Positions 5,096 to 21,161 of a stretch of 23,172 nucleotides of DNA are shown here, in pieces. Position 1 is the stretch's first letter, and every line of letters starts with the position of its first letter. The position numbers and the translations under genes were made by a program. The notes beneath the pieces are model-generated. The model was not told the DNA's origin and searched no databases. It was given only the letters and a program-made list of their open reading frames with translations. Where the stretch lies: IMG/VR virus record IMGVR_UViG_3300017776_000200, positions 1 through 23,172 of that record; one strand, written 5' to 3'. This DNA comes from a virus.

Positions 5096-6642
5096 TGACT
5101 AGAGAATTAGTAAAATATCCTATGTTTAAAACTTATATGTCAAAAGGTTTATCAGAAGATGAAATTAAAACAGATGCAACACTGACTATAGTTAATAGAG
5201 GATTAAATATGACTGATGGAGAAAGAGCAGCACTTGGATTAAGTTCTGATTTTTTTACAGCTGAAAATATACTAGGTCTTATGGATAACAAAAGAATTAG
5301 ATTTGATTATGATGCAACAAGTATAGGTGATCCAACATATAGAATATCTATGGATTTAGATGGAGATGGAATATTTATGGCATTAAATAATCCTAATAAT
5401 CCAGAATCAGGGTTTAAACCTGAAGCTAATAGAGAATTAAATGCATCATTAACATTATCTGGTGTTAGATCAGACTTCCAAAATACAGCATGGCAAAATT
5501 GGAAAAGTCAAAATATTAAAGCAGATACATTTTTCAAAACATATGGATTTGCAAATATAGAAGAACAACCATTAGTTATGCAAACATTAAAAGGTATGTT
5601 TAACCTTGTGTATAATGGATATAACAAAGGTAAAAATGGAATAGAAGATTTAGGTAGAATGTTTAATGATATTGAATGGCTACCTGATGTTAGTATTGAT
5701 ATGAATACTGTAGAAAGACAATTACAAGAAAATCAAATTGCTTTTCTAACATATCAACAACAAAAAGAAGCTGGAGTATTTGATGATAATCTAGCTACAC
5801 AATTTTCAGGCAAGGAGCAAACAGCTATGGGATATCAAAATACAGCAACAAACTTATTAATGGACACTATTAACAAACAAGAAGGTGGTTTCTATGCACA
5901 AGCATATGATTCTGGTTTTACAGGAAATAGAAACAAAACATTTAATGTTGGTACTAGAGCTGGTGGTGGTGGCCCAGTAGAAATGGTTACTGAAGGTAGT
6001 AAAATACAAAAAGCAGAATATGATCTTATGATGTCAGAAAATGGTGATCCTACTATTGGTACTGGATTATCGTTAAAAGATCCAACTGTTAAATCTCAAT
6101 TAACAGAACTTGGTTACGATATTGACAAGTTATTAACTGGTGAACAAACAATTACTAGAGAAGATAACAACATTGTTATGATGAAAATGTTAGATGATAA
6201 ATTAAAATTAGTACAAAGTATTACTGGTATAGATGATTTAGCATCAAATAAAAACGCATACTTAACTGTAGCTCTAGTTAAATTAGCATATAACAGTTCT
6301 TCATGGATTGGGCCAAGATTTCAAAAAGCATTAAATCAGTTTATTAAAACTGGTGATATGAAATACATTGGTAGTTTTGGAAGTTATAAAGAAGGCACAG
6401 ATGAGTTTTACTCAGGTGCAACTGCTGCTGGTGTTAAACAATATGAACCAGCATTGTTAAATGAATTATGGAATGATGCAGAAGGACAAGCTGCAATAGG
6501 ATATGGTGGATTTAGAACTATGATGAGAGATGTAGCAGAATATATTACTGCATGGTCACAAGGTCAAATGACTTATTTTCCTGATTTACAAGTTACAACA
6601 TCACCACAAATACAAAAAAAGAATAAATCTATATTAGACTAG
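5095..6642 (+). CDS. Ejection-complex protein with GH24 lysozyme-like domain
   Basis: This 515-residue protein lies between the gp15-like and gp16-like genes. Residues about 257-400 resemble a GH24 (T4-lysozyme-type) muramidase: KQEGG with candidate catalytic E263, AYDS with D272, then GDPTIGTG with T320. After these come an ITREDNN segment and a VALVKLAYN helix like the ALVSLAYN helix of the family. The E, D and T triad order and the TIGxG motif fit, but about 45 residues (Gly-rich, GTRAGGGGP) separate D272 from T320, far more than in T4 lysozyme. The N-terminal 250 residues are unrecognised. The likely job is local peptidoglycan opening during DNA injection; T7 does this with a transglycosylase domain at the N-terminus of gp16. 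The enzymatic call rests on motif reading and could be a degenerate fold. Confidence 0.62.
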   Translation: MTRELVKYPMFKTYMSKGLSEDEIKTDATLTIVNRGLNMTDGERAALGLSSDFFTAENILGLMDNKRIRFDYDATSIGDPTYRISMDLDGDGIFMALNNPNNPESGFKPEANRELNASLTLSGVRSDFQNTAWQNWKSQNIKADTFFKTYGFANIEEQPLVMQTLKGMFNLVYNGYNKGKNGIEDLGRMFNDIEWLPDVSIDMNTVERQLQENQIAFLTYQQQKEAGVFDDNLATQFSGKEQTAMGYQNTATNLLMDTINKQEGGFYAQAYDSGFTGNRNKTFNVGTRAGGGGPVEMVTEGSKIQKAEYDLMMSENGDPTIGTGLSLKDPTVKSQLTELGYDIDKLLTGEQTITREDNNIVMMKMLDDKLKLVQSITGIDDLASNKNAYLTVALVKLAYNSSSWIGPRFQKALNQFIKTGDMKYIGSFGSYKEGTDEFYSGATAAGVKQYEPALLNELWNDAEGQAAIGYGGFRTMMRDVAEYITAWSQGQMTYFPDLQVTTSPQIQKKNKSILD

Positions 6643-10011: not shown

Positions 10012-13000
10012 ATGGCAATAACAATATCAGACATATCACCTAGAATACAATATACAGCTACGTCTGGACAAACATCATTTACAGTTCCTTTTGAGTTCTT
10101 TGGTGATAATGATTTAGTAGTAGTTAATACTAATGCTGGTGGTGTTAATACAACTTTAACTAAAGCTGCAAGTCCTTCTAGTGTATCACAATATTCTGTC
10201 ACAGGAGCTGGTGTTACTGGTGGTGGTTCTATTACACTTGGTGGTGGAGCAACTTTAAACGATAAATACACAATTACAAGAAATGTACCAATAGCTAGAT
10301 CAACTGATTTTGCTACTACTGGTGTATTTCCTATAGATTCTTTAAATACAGAATTAGATAAACTTGTTGCAATGATGCAACAACAAGGAGTAGATATTAA
10401 TTTATCTCCTAGAGCTTCTTCTACAACATCAACAGCTTATGGTTTAATATTTCCAGAATTAGTTGCTGATAAAATATTATCAGTAAATAGTGCTGGTGAT
10501 AGTCTTTTATTTTCTCAAGAAATAGGTAATTTTAAAGGAAATTGGTCAGCTAGTACATCATATGTACAAAGAGATATAGTAAAAGATACTTCTACAAATA
10601 ATATATTTATAGCAAACACTGCTCATACATCATCAGGATCACAACCTTTAACTACAAATACAGATTCTGCAAAGTGGGATTTATTAGTAGATGCTGCATC
10701 AGCAACAACTTCAGCAAGTGCTGCTGCAACTTCAGCTACTGCTGCTGCTTCTAGTGCAACTACTGCATCTGGTCATGCTACTACAGCAACTACCAAAGCT
10801 GGTGAAGCCGCAACTTCTGCTACAGCTTCAGCCAGTTCTGCTACAGCTTCTGCTAGTTCTGCAACAAGTGCTAGTGGTTCTGCATCAACTGCAACGACTA
10901 AGGCTAGTGAGGCTAGTACAAGTGCTACTAATGCTGCATCATCTGCAACATCTGCTACTAGCTCTGCATCTACAGCTACAACCAAAGCAAGTGAAGCATC
11001 TACGTCTGCAACAAACGCTGCATCTTCAGCAACTACTGCATCTACTAATGCTACAACTGCTACAACAAAAGCAACTGAGGCTGCTACATCAGCTACAACA
11101 GCTTCTACACAAGCAAGTACAGCTACTACAAAGGCAAGTGAAGCCGCTACATCAGCAACAAATGCAGCTACATCTGCTACATCATCTGCTACTTCAGCGA
11201 CTAATGCTGGTAATTCAGCTACCGCAGCCGCTAATTCTGCCGCTGCTGCTGCTAATTCATTTGATGATTTTGATGATAAATACTTAGGAAGTAAAACTTC
11301 TAATCCTACAGTAGACAATGATGGTAATGCTTTAGTAACTGGTGCTTTATATTTTAATTCAACTGCAAATGAAATGCGTGTTTATGATGGTGCTAATTGG
11401 ATTGCTGCCTCAAGTGCTGGTACAGCTTCTTTAATTTTATATGAGTACACAGCAACAGCTGGTCAAACAACTTTTACTGGTAGTGATGATAACTCAGCAA
11501 CACTTTCTTACAGTGTAGGTAATTTACAAGTAATGATGAATGGTATTGTATTAGACCCTTCAGATTTTACAGCAACAACTGGTACATCTATTGTGCTAGG
11601 TAGTGGAGCTGCTCTAAATGATTTAGTTAATATCTATGCTTTTAAATCTTTTACTGTATCTGAAATTAATGCAAACAATCTAAATGACGGAATAGTACCT
11701 GATGCAAGATTTCCAGCAACCTTACCAGCTATATCTGGTGCTAACTTAACAAACTTAGATGCTTCTGATTTAGCAAGTGGTACTGTACCTGATGCAAGAT
11801 TTCCAGCAACACTTCCAGCTTTAAATGGTTCTGCTTTAACAAATTTAACTTCTGGTAACTTAACTGGTGCATTACCAGCTATTGATGGTTCTGCTCTCAC
11901 AGGTATAGAATCAGGAATTGCTTGGCAATCATCAATTAAAACAGCTAATTTTTCAGCATCTTCTAATGAAGGTTATTGGGTTGATACATCATCAAACACA
12001 GTAACTATAACATTCCCTTCAAGTCCAAGTGTAGGAGATACTATTGAATTAGTAGACTATGCAAGAAATTGGGGAACAAATAAAATTATAATAGATAGTA
12101 ATACTAAAAACTATCAAGGCGACCCAGATACATTTATTGTTCAATACGACACAAGTGGTCAAGGATTAAGAGTAGTTTATTCTGGTGCAACCAAAGGTTG
12201 GATTCCAACATCAGACGAAGTATCTGAAGATAATCCTATAAATGCTTATAATGTAGATTTCTTAGTTGTCGCTGGTGGAGCTGGTGGCGGTATGGATTCT
12301 GGTGGAGGTGGAGGTGCTGGTGGTTATCGAGCATCATACAACTCTGAGGCATCAGGTGGTGGAGGTTCTTCGGAAACTGCACTACAGGTTATAGCTGGAA
12401 CTCAATACACTGTAACAGTAGGCTCTGGTGGTTCTGCATCATCAGGTGGTTCTGCTAGTCGAGGGGGTAGTGGTAGTGGTTCTGTTTTTGGTTCAATAAG
12501 TTCAACTGGTGGTGGTGGTGGAGGAAGTAATAGTGAATCACCTGACCTAAGACCTGGACTTAATGGAGGTTCTGGCGGTGGTGCTGGTACAAATTCAAAT
12601 GGCGGAGTTCATCAAGGTGGCTCTGGAACAGCTAATCAAGGCTTTGATGGTGGAGATTCTGACGGAGGGTCATTTCCAAATAGAAAAGGTGGTGGTGGCG
12701 GAGGTGCTTCTGCTGCTGGTGGAAATGCATCACAAACTGTTGCTGGTAGTGGAGGTAATGGTGTTGCTTCAACAATCACAGGTTCTTCAGTCACACGAGC
12801 TGGTGGCGGTGGAGGTGGCGGTCAAGGTAATGCTGGTACTGCTGGTTCTGGAGGTTCAGGCGGTGGCGGTGCTGGAAGCGTTAATGGTAATGGAACAAAT
12901 GGAACAGGAAACACTGGTAGTGGTGGAGGTGCTTGTTCATACAATCAGACAAGTGGTGCTGGGGGTTCTGGTATCGTTATTCTTCGTATGCCAACTGCTA

Positions 13001-13095
13001 GTTATTCAGGCACAACATCAGGTTCACCTTCTGTTTCAACAAGTGGCTCAGATACAATATTAACATACACAGGTTCAGGGAGTTACACAGCGTAA
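10012..13095 (+). CDS. Tail fibre protein, T7 gp17-type N-terminus with Gly-rich tip
   Basis: This 1027-residue modular adhesin is built as follows. Residues 1 to about 125 form a T7-type tail-attachment domain (IQYTATSGQTSFTVPFEF, later ITRNVPI). Residues about 173-226 contain a W...Y...D...A...W pattern like small carbohydrate-binding modules. Residues about 227-419 are an Ala/Ser/Thr heptad shaft. Residues about 475-555 repeat the YTATAGQTTFTG module. Copies of PDARFPATLPA follow at about 560-630. A beta domain lies at about 655-740 (TVTITFPSSPSVGD). From about 748 there is a Gly-rich domain starting FLVVAGGAGGG, ending near SGIVILRMPTASYSG. The fibre should be trimeric and recognise the host surface. 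It sits directly after the ejection genes and its stop overlaps the next start (TAATG). Confidence 0.88.
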   Translation: MAITISDISPRIQYTATSGQTSFTVPFEFFGDNDLVVVNTNAGGVNTTLTKAASPSSVSQYSVTGAGVTGGGSITLGGGATLNDKYTITRNVPIARSTDFATTGVFPIDSLNTELDKLVAMMQQQGVDINLSPRASSTTSTAYGLIFPELVADKILSVNSAGDSLLFSQEIGNFKGNWSASTSYVQRDIVKDTSTNNIFIANTAHTSSGSQPLTTNTDSAKWDLLVDAASATTSASAAATSATAAASSATTASGHATTATTKAGEAATSATASASSATASASSATSASGSASTATTKASEASTSATNAASSATSATSSASTATTKASEASTSATNAASSATTASTNATTATTKATEAATSATTASTQASTATTKASEAATSATNAATSATSSATSATNAGNSATAAANSAAAAANSFDDFDDKYLGSKTSNPTVDNDGNALVTGALYFNSTANEMRVYDGANWIAASSAGTASLILYEYTATAGQTTFTGSDDNSATLSYSVGNLQVMMNGIVLDPSDFTATTGTSIVLGSGAALNDLVNIYAFKSFTVSEINANNLNDGIVPDARFPATLPAISGANLTNLDASDLASGTVPDARFPATLPALNGSALTNLTSGNLTGALPAIDGSALTGIESGIAWQSSIKTANFSASSNEGYWVDTSSNTVTITFPSSPSVGDTIELVDYARNWGTNKIIIDSNTKNYQGDPDTFIVQYDTSGQGLRVVYSGATKGWIPTSDEVSEDNPINAYNVDFLVVAGGAGGGMDSGGGGGAGGYRASYNSEASGGGGSSETALQVIAGTQYTVTVGSGGSASSGGSASRGGSGSGSVFGSISSTGGGGGGSNSESPDLRPGLNGGSGGGAGTNSNGGVHQGGSGTANQGFDGGDSDGGSFPNRKGGGGGGASAAGGNASQTVAGSGGNGVASTITGSSVTRAGGGGGGGQGNAGTAGSGGSGGGGAGSVNGNGTNGTGNTGSGGGACSYNQTSGAGGSGIVILRMPTASYSGTTSGSPSVSTSGSDTILTYTGSGSYTA
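10786..11268 (+). repeat. In-frame heptad repeats coding the fibre shaft
   Basis: The motif ATTKA recurs five times inside the fibre gene (first at residue 259), with spacings of 35, 28, 28 and 21 residues, all multiples of seven. Within each block the register is ATTKASE followed by heptads such as ASTSATN and AASSATS. The DNA copies have diverged at synonymous positions, so selection on protein register, not recent slippage, is suggested. An A/S/T-rich trimeric coiled coil is the natural reading. Both the opposite strand and another + frame stay open here because of composition. Confidence 0.85.
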
Positions 13096-19351: not shown

Positions 19352-19517
19352 CTTGATCCTTCCAATATTGTAAAACAGCTAAATTTACATCTTCATGTAA
19401 AACTCTTAAATTACCTATGTCTATTTCAGTAGGAGAACCAATACTTTTATTGACATTATAAATCTCATCTTTTGTTAGTGAGATATATAATTTATTATTT
19501 AGATATACTATCCTCAT
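19335..19517 (-). CDS. Small hypothetical protein
   Basis: This 60-residue protein is not recognised. It begins with a beta-like MRIVYLNNKLYISLTKDEI and continues with DIGNLRVLHEDVNLAVLQYW, ending basic. It has a good GAGGAAAC Shine-Dalgarno and overlaps both the upstream XRE gene (23 bases) and the downstream gene (17 bases), typical of this compact operon. Confidence 0.55.
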   Translation of the reverse strand: MRIVYLNNKLYISLTKDEIYNVNKSIGSPTEIDIGNLRVLHEDVNLAVLQYWKDQDAKRK

Positions 19518-19746
19518 GTTTCCTCAATTCTAATACAATATCACAATCTAATGCATCGGCCCAGCAACAAAATAAATAACCACTCGGTTTTCTAATACCG
19601 ACTTCCCATTTTGATACTAAACCTTTAGCTACTCCTAGAATATCATCTAGGTTAGCTTGTGTTATACCTTTTCTATTTCTAGCTTCTACGAATTGAGGAA
19701 TAATTTTAGTAAAAAATCTTTTGCCTAAAGCATATTCCATATTCAA
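19495..19746 (-). CDS. XRE/Cro-type helix-turn-helix regulator
   Basis: This 83-residue single-domain protein has an HTH of the Cro/CI type: EARNRKGITQANLDDILGVA at about residues 21-40, recognition helix KGLVSKWEVG at 41-50, then RKPS, the standard ending of the motif. A C-terminal helix with CCWADALDCDIVLEL follows, as in minimal XRE proteins. It is a likely transcriptional regulator of the early operon. Oddly, it is the only confidently predicted gene on this strand without a Shine-Dalgarno, and it starts 17 bases after the final stem of the large structured RNA. Its translation may therefore depend on that upstream RNA. Confidence 0.8.
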   Translation of the reverse strand: MNMEYALGKRFFTKIIPQFVEARNRKGITQANLDDILGVAKGLVSKWEVGIRKPSGYLFCCWADALDCDIVLELRKHEDSISK

Positions 19747-19762: not shown

Positions 19763-20340
19763 ATACGAAAGGCAAGGATGATATCTCATTACGGCTACTA
19801 CCTTGCCTTAGGTATTATAAAAAAGAACTTTGTACATACTCCACTTGTAACAAAGATTAAGTGATGACCCTCCTGTTATTCTTGATGCCGTTATTCACCA
19901 AGCAGTATGGATAGGGAAACACATACTTTTTTACATATTCGGTAGGTATAGGAGGCAACCCAACGAAACTCAATTCACTGAAGGCGTGGGATTATTTTAT
20001 CACCCACAAGCTTTCGACTACAGATAGAATTTTGCTCTATGTCTACTCACAACCACCCTTGAGTACCTCAGGCATTTGCCCATACTTCATCTTAGGTGTA
20101 CCTTACGCCTCTGTTGAAACGTTATTCGGTCAGCCTGAAAGGGAGGGCTACTCCCTAACGTGAAACTTTGAGGATGTGCAGAACGTCAATGTTATATCTG
20201 CTTTAGTAGAGATCAGGCTACTTATAACAACATCCTCTCGCTTAGCGAAACTTATAGGTAGTTTTAGGAAAAACAGATACTCTCATGTTTATACATCCCT
20301 CGGCACTACCTTAGCCTAAAGAATTACCAACGGGCAATCC
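19763..20340 (-). ncRNA. Large structured noncoding RNA candidate (GOLLD/ROOL-like in size and character; family unassigned)
   Basis: No credible ORF exists across about 600 nt, and G/C reaches 32 of 60 at 20101-20160. Read on the minus strand, perfect helices are dense. 20230-20237 pairs with 20170-20177 (8 bp), stacked on 20223-20229 with 20190-20196 (7 bp), stacked on 20218-20222 with 20205-20209. 20151-20156 pairs with 20140-20145. 20105-20110 pairs with 19982-19987. 19922-19927 pairs with 19904-19909. 19896-19902 pairs with 19881-19887. 19850-19855 pairs with 19828-19833. The terminal 9-bp stem is 19769-19777 with 19801-19809, extended by 4 bp. 19938-19947 pairs with 19958-19967 with one mismatch, and its loop (19950-19955) matches 19869-19874. 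This is an RNA-like architecture; I propose it is transcribed with the early operon. tmRNA, RNase P RNA and group I/II intron signatures were not found. Confidence 0.75.
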
Positions 20341-20348
20341 TAAACTTA

Positions 20349-21161
20349 TTAATTTAATACTTTCATACCAGCAACTTTGCGTTGTCTATCATATACTGTA
20401 TTGATAGATGCACTTGGGTAATGTGTTGCCCAGTGTGTCCATGCTTGATATGCACTAAATAAATTCTTACCATATCTTTTAGAGTATGAATCATATTCAT
20501 CAATTATATATTTCTTACATTGTTGATTGACATGACTTTTATCTTTATGTGTTGGTTGAAAACATAATTTATCTGTATGTGATTCCATTTCATATGAAGT
20601 CATATCTATTTCACACATGTTATTTAGTTTACTAGATACTTGATGCAAGTTACATAATTGTTTTCCATTTGTTTCTAATACAAGTTCTTTCTTACTACTA
20701 TGTCTTTTAGAGATATGTATATCCCATAAATTATGACCTAAGCCATTAGTACATATTTCATAAACATAACTAATAATTAAGATAAACGATCTAGTACCAT
20801 TCAAACTATTAAACATAGATGCTTTTAACAAAACACGACTATCTCTAAATGGTTGTTGATAGTGCGGTAATGTAAAGTCATATCGTATAATAGTACCATC
20901 TGGTGCTGATCTCGGTTGTATAATCATACCTGTAGTATCGAAGTGTTTATCCAAATAAGTCACTGTTTTTACTACACATTCTTCATTTGTAAGTACCTGA
21001 TATGATTGTTTTTGTATAGATAATAACTGATCTGTATTACCATTTCTTAACTGTTTATAACCTTTGATGAGTTCACCTTGTTGATTATAAATAGGCATTT
21101 CATTAACTGGAAAAAATAAATGTGCATTGTTATCCAGTTCGGTTTGTAGTAGTGTATTCAT
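20349..21161 (-). CDS. DUF932-like protein
   Basis: This 270-residue protein matches, by pattern, the phage/plasmid DUF932 family. An N-terminal portion contains NGNTDQLLSIQKQSYQVLTN. A central beta region contains SLNGTRSFILIISYVYEICTNG, the 'NG.RSF....YR..CTNG'-like core of the family. A helical C-terminal region ends HYPSASINTVYDRQRKVAG. The biochemical role of DUF932 is unclear; such genes occur in early regions of phages and near recombination genes. It has a strong AGGAAAGGA Shine-Dalgarno. The large structured RNA starts within about ten bases of its stop, so both may share a transcript. Confidence 0.62.
   Translation of the reverse strand: MNTLLQTELDNNAHLFFPVNEMPIYNQQGELIKGYKQLRNGNTDQLLSIQKQSYQVLTNEECVVKTVTYLDKHFDTTGMIIQPRSAPDGTIIRYDFTLPHYQQPFRDSRVLLKASMFNSLNGTRSFILIISYVYEICTNGLGHNLWDIHISKRHSSKKELVLETNGKQLCNLHQVSSKLNNMCEIDMTSYEMESHTDKLCFQPTHKDKSHVNQQCKKYIIDEYDSYSKRYGKNLFSAYQAWTHWATHYPSASINTVYDRQRKVAGMKVLN

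Follow-up and report, generated by a model that had tools for sequence, protein, structure and literature searches.

A 23-kb IMG/VR contig, analysed over its full length of 23,172 nucleotides (the window), contains a gap of about 580 nt at positions 19763-20340. The first-pass annotation read this gap as one large, ornate RNA on the minus strand, possibly a divergent relative of the GOLLD and ROOL RNAs. The locus thus raises three questions: whether the gap encodes structured RNA, whether that RNA is one molecule or several, and whether it acts on the gene behind it or on its own.

The gap and its surroundings

As had been claimed, the region lacks a credible ORF: none on either strand exceeds 47 aa, and the minus strand contains none of at least 40 aa. 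The reported rise in GC is correct in its counts (32/60 at 20101-20160; 14/60 at 5101-5160) and for the region as a whole (41% compared to 32.3% for the window), but 27 of 452 stretches of the same size, mainly in tail genes, have equal or higher GC. Two patches of 46-52% GC (10651-11250 and 12151-13050) lie within a 1027-aa tail-region ORF of this 32% GC contig and are perhaps acquired or repetitive tail sequence. Folding energy of 599 nt was modestly better than that of shuffled sequence (z = -1.9), and the plus strand scored the same as the minus strand. Energy alone is therefore insufficient proof of an RNA, and minimum free energy was dropped as evidence.

A RecE-like exonuclease gene is situated downstream of the RNA region, whose immediate neighbours are:

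20349-21161, minus strand: DUF932 protein of 270 aa, upstream neighbour (Pfam PF06067, E 3.5e-6)
19495-19740, minus strand: small helix-turn-helix (HTH) protein, downstream neighbour (Pfam PF01381, E 6.7e-8)

The proteins nearest to the tail protein of the window are those of Pelagibacter phages (39% to EXVC031P Hodr), and the podovirus carrying the window therefore likely has a SAR11-type host.

The manA-related domain

At curated cut-offs, Rfam gave no match in the window region. A permissive search returned neither GOLLD nor ROOL at E 10, and instead matched manA RNA (RF01745) at 20156-19977 on the minus strand, with 39.5 bits and E 1.1e-8 (8.8e-11 when computed for one genome). The match spans the full model (1-192 of 192) and does not reach the gathering score of 55.2 bits, which implies a divergent manA relative rather than a formal Rfam hit. 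Other contigs of the window's own family score the same as the window, and cyanophage-type contigs score up to 121 bits. tRNA models (up to E 10) and ARAGORN found nothing in the window region, and a tRNA or tmRNA identity of the core was dropped. A host-derived element was likewise dropped, as neither subfamily signature matched any of 84,980 bacterial and archaeal species genomes. A blastn search of isolate phages with the window region and four other subfamily members (L060, L067, L263, and L264) gave no match.

Comparison of relatives delimited the conserved unit. The whole intergenic region is present in five contigs (L002, L003, L007, L008, and L009); other contigs have just ≈190 nt of it in common with the window. 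A DNA-signature search yielded 86 group-1 and 93 group-2 stretches, nearly all from metagenome contigs. The elements of the core are:

19974-20165, minus strand: manA-family RNA from P0 to P0 (RF01745 match; 97.4% paired in 70 distinct relatives)
20160-20164, minus strand: 5' strand of the P0 outer helix, UUCAC, pairing with GUGAA at 19974-19978; covaries
20140-20156, minus strand: P1 hairpin (20156-20151 with 20145-20140), matching the first hairpin of RF01745
20133-20136, minus strand: 5' strand of P2, pairing with 19982-19985 and closing a five-way junction
20100-20130, minus strand: P3, with the GACCGAAUAA internal loop, P3b (20121-20117/20110-20106) and UAAGGU; covariation
20054-20098, minus strand: P4, with P4a (20098-20094/20058-20054) and apical P4c (20081-20078/20073-20070), both compensatory
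19986-20007, minus strand: P6, GUGGG(U...UAAU)CCCAC, with pairs retained in 70/70 relatives

Among the 70 distinct cores, 97.4% of the cells in 27 pairs were standard pairs; the corresponding values were 78.2 ± 0.6% for shuffles and 36-51% for slid controls. Two-sided changes occurred in 17 of the 27 pairs, in counts that ignore relatedness, and these changes were spread over many divergent lineages. They are located in P2 (where C-G, G-C, U-A, and A-U are all seen), P3a (A-U in 34/70 and G-C in 34/70), P3b, P4a, P4c, and P6 (where one position is U-A in 54 and A-U in 16 of the 70). In relatives, P1 is swapped for different, still paired stems. P5 is too variable in sequence for counting, and it and the conserved internal loops were judged by sequence conservation alone. 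By contrast, a long-range helix that the first-pass annotation had drawn between 20105-20110 and 19982-19987 was paired in just 52% of cells across the 70 relatives. The reason is that P3b and P2, both conserved, use the same nucleotides. A pseudoknot of the P6 loop was also dropped, as inspection by eye gave no consistent partner.

The window copy thus has the P1 hairpin and the P2-closed five-way junction with P3-P6 that characterize manA, in the same hairpin order and in a marine phage setting. It also carries the conserved loop sequences of P3 and P6 (GACYGAAUAA...UAAGGU and GUGGGU...UAAUCCCAC), the P3 loop being the most conserved of manA. It differs from RF01745 in its score below the gathering score, its shorter P4 and P5, and the addition of P0. 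Moreover, its subfamily occurs in SAR11-type podoviruses and pelagimyophages, whereas RF01745 is found mainly in cyanophages. We conclude that 20165-19974 on the minus strand is a new divergent manA subfamily in SAR11-type phages.

P0 sits just outside the Rfam model and closes the domain. In relatives, it takes the forms UUCGU/GCGAA, AGAAACUGA/UCAGUUUCU, and UAUGC/GCAUA, and reaches 21 bp in L137. Its mean helix score was 19.3, compared to 13.6 when 5' and 3' sides were combined across loci, a crude control that is conservative because some pairs come from close relatives. In several group-1 members, the helix finder chose other short pairings, so support for P0 comes mainly from group 2, L138, L176, L296, and aligned group-1 examples. 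The segment common to otherwise unrelated contexts has both its ends at P0, and the conserved unit, which is mobile as a whole, measures ≈190 nt. In L137, L380, and L410, the P0 inverted repeats extend up to 21 bp, and their 5' arm shares positions with the -10 box of the putative promoter.

The group-2 RNA of HTVC008M (KC465899), an isolate on Pelagibacter HTCC1062, has the same fold and 75.9% identity to the L137 core over 160 nt. Unlike the window copy, it precedes gp32 in a myophage and has been annotated as a 56-aa protein, AGE60342.1, which overlaps the conserved RNA (KC465899.1 5035-5196, plus strand; L255 4501-4662). AGE60342.1 is probably not a protein, in which case at least one annotated "protein" is corrected here.

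The core topology bears some resemblance to class II tRNA, with a gapless P2/P6 stack like the acceptor and T-arm and a 2-nt UG linker. The group-2 P4 tip (GGCCGARUGGCUGAAGAC in L134, L137, L163, L218, and L243) is like the D-arm of bacterial tRNA-Ser, and P6 in the same five contigs is like a T-arm with an enlarged loop. These likenesses come without a tRNA-model match and are a lead only.

Genomic contexts and possible mode of action

manA RNA was described in 2010 as a riboswitch candidate in 5' UTRs (Weinberg 2010, PMC2864571), its structure was updated in Rfam 14 (PMC7779021), and Rfam types RF01745 as Cis-reg. In contrast to that assignment, the evidence gathered here favours a stand-alone RNA. 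The copy in L022 occupies the interval that separates tRNA-Thr from tRNA-Ser, and the copy in L021 lies between tRNA-Asn and a tRNA-Asp-like start; both are only a few nucleotides from either neighbour. The copy in cyanophage S-SSM7 has a perfect TTGACA-17-TATAAT immediately 5' of it, and tRNA-Gly starts ≈2 nt past the match. manA copies therefore stand among phage tRNAs with tRNA-like spacing, and like these the modules come and go as units, although the window region itself has no tRNA match. Antisense copies were found in complete as well as partial genomes. In the complete circular phage genome 023Pt_psg01, the RNA, preceded by TTGACA-17-TATATA, runs antisense to every one of the 18 genes annotated over 5.2 kb, and in L243, L361, and L398 it is inverted relative to L167, where it is sense with the same genes on either side.

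Altogether, a dozen or more unrelated gene junctions host the RNA, with the genes at these junctions called by a simple ORF script and not taken from curated records. The next gene may be talC, tRNA-Gly, DUF932, gp32, GuaC-like, or one of many small unknowns, with GuaC and some gp32 names resting on sequence resemblance, and some loci have no next gene. The next genes form no coherent controlled set such as a riboswitch would have, and a single controlled gene was dropped as a candidate because the contexts are too diverse. Some relatives with the same operon have no RNA.

The placement of copies among tRNAs, in inverted orientation, and at many junctions where they come and go argues for a stand-alone RNA. 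From these family contexts, we predict that manA is most likely a free-standing phage RNA, a reading that we consider probable and favour over a riboswitch. The modules would be read from the minus strand within the early operon of the probable SAR11 podovirus. The manA core would form a self-closed ≈190-nt domain: P2, itself enclosed by P0 and P1, would close the five-way junction with P3-P6. Transcription could start at the RNA's own sigma-70 promoter or proceed within an operon or tRNA-array transcript, and processing of the flanking RNA may then free the manA RNA. Once freed, it might use its invariant loops to bind a factor of host or phage origin and so act in trans. No promoter was found adjoining the window's own copy, which would accordingly be made from the operon transcript and presumably released from it.

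The main alternative is the 2010 proposal that manA is a riboswitch or other cis leader, in which a bound ligand or protein alters expression of the next gene. A 5'-UTR position is indeed true of many loci. In group 2, the pelagimyophage subfamily, 45 of 55 copies lie right behind a sigma-70-like promoter scoring at least 10/12 (background ≈2%), these sites being consensus matches, and the -10 box ends a few nucleotides 5' of P0. Group-2 copies mostly precede the gp32 SSB gene or operon, including that of HTVC008M, and transcription would run into the gene without an intervening terminator. Intrinsic terminators 3' of the RNA were found in 2/44 cases and, in group 2, 0/46 (background 6%), and at most loci a same-strand gene follows within 15-220 nt; in L097, L224, L268, L270, and L313 the start codon is 17-21 nt away. 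The lack of a terminator and the proximity of a gene make a cis role possible at those loci. By contrast, a 5'-UTR position is impossible for inverted copies, which have no sense gene behind them, and for those between tRNAs; the great diversity of next genes and the empty junctions in otherwise identical operons also speak against a cis leader, which we therefore judge unlikely as the general explanation. A mixed picture is also possible, in which manA is a stand-alone RNA that is often at the head of an early transcript. If manA is free-standing, the search for a metabolite ligand looked in the wrong place, and the question of orphan manA can now be tested with the isolates HTVC008M and S-SSM7.

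Alternatively, the RNA could stabilize or process transcripts, with P0 shielding early mRNA from host nucleases at its 5' end or at an internally cut end. The few nucleotides between the group-2 -10 box and P0 imply that the 5' end would be paired, in a helix of up to 21 bp, and the linkers between modules in the gap are repeated. Yet such an element does not need invariant junction loops, and the inverted and tRNA-array copies would be left unexplained; we regard this role as improbable.

Several group-2 pelagimyophage-type contigs also encode a permuted tmRNA (RF04321/RF01849), at L163 16-231 (+), L135 8423-8616 (-), L207 3026-3230 (+), L354 6275-6599, and L359 1406-1749; tag peptides can be read from them, ADFTEYALAA and ANDNNFALAA among others. 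In T4-like contigs (L011, L018, L060, L087, and others), tandem or overlapping manA copies lie ≈366 nt 5' of gp32-like and UvsX-like genes, so named by likeness of sequence.

Separable modules in the gap

The remainder of the gap is made up of further elements:

20170-20250, minus strand: module B, a small hairpin (20250-20238) and a three-way junction (20237-20170); covariation
20257-20341, minus strand: module A, a hairpin (20341-20320) and a GGUAGU/ACUACC-closed element (20310-20257)
19813-19973, minus strand: variable segment that differs or is missing in close relatives (alignment)
19769-19809, minus strand: conserved hairpin, AAGGCAAGG/CCUUGCCUU, before the HTH gene

The three-helix element that had been noticed at 20170-20237 is real. 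In module B, 98.6% of cells are paired, with nine two-sided pairs compared to 2.4 in shuffles, and 0/500 shuffles were as good; the comparison covers eight sequences and is hence modest. Neither module B nor the manA core has a conserved ORF running through it in relatives, and both contain covarying pairs.

These elements are arranged differently in different phages. Among contigs sharing the window's junction, B is missing from L009, present without the core in L427, and placed 3' of the core in L261. L161 likewise carries B 3' of the core. The junction between a 136-aa gene and DUF932 contains the core alone in L097 and L224, B alone in L422, B and core in L256, and A and core in L294 and L322, so that module A there adjoins the core at a different gene junction. 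The same junction is empty in L441, L442, L245, L318, L443, L446, L450, L454, L457, and L458, with GGAGGA directly after the stop codon; L245 carries its RNA after the SSB gene instead. In L008 and L440, another hairpin module with compensatory closing stems takes the place of the variable segment. The hairpin at 19769-19809 is near-identical in all same-site relatives, whether or not the manA core is present. Modules are bordered by repeated AAAGUUUC-like linkers, and the loss of B in L009 extends exactly from repeat to repeat.

In relatives, the parts of the gap are gained, lost, and rearranged independently of one another, so the gap is not one continuous RNA but a short row of distinct structured RNA modules. 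The first-pass annotation was thus right about minus-strand structured RNA in the early region of a SAR11-type podovirus, and wrong about its unity. A single ornate RNA of ≈580 nt would, like GOLLD and ROOL, be a large structured noncoding region in a phage and would account for the numerous stable helices side by side, but it is very improbable given that GOLLD and ROOL were unmatched at any tested threshold, that the parts occur alone and reshuffled, and that the proposed enclosing helix is not conserved.

More tentatively, marine phages may possess a cassette system of small structured RNAs (the manA core, A, B, and others), joined by short AAAGUUUC linkers and shuffled like tRNAs between early genes, with trans-acting roles that might include takeover of translation or countering host defences. 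If this is true, RNA modules join the accessory parts exchanged by phages of the most abundant ocean bacteria.

Further recurring hairpin modules are visible in the same gap in L008 (≈6290-6345), L440, L437, and L261, with closing stems UUGAUCUA/UAGAUCAA versus AGACCUA/UAGGUCU, and there is also a CGGUG...CACCGAAUA hairpin.
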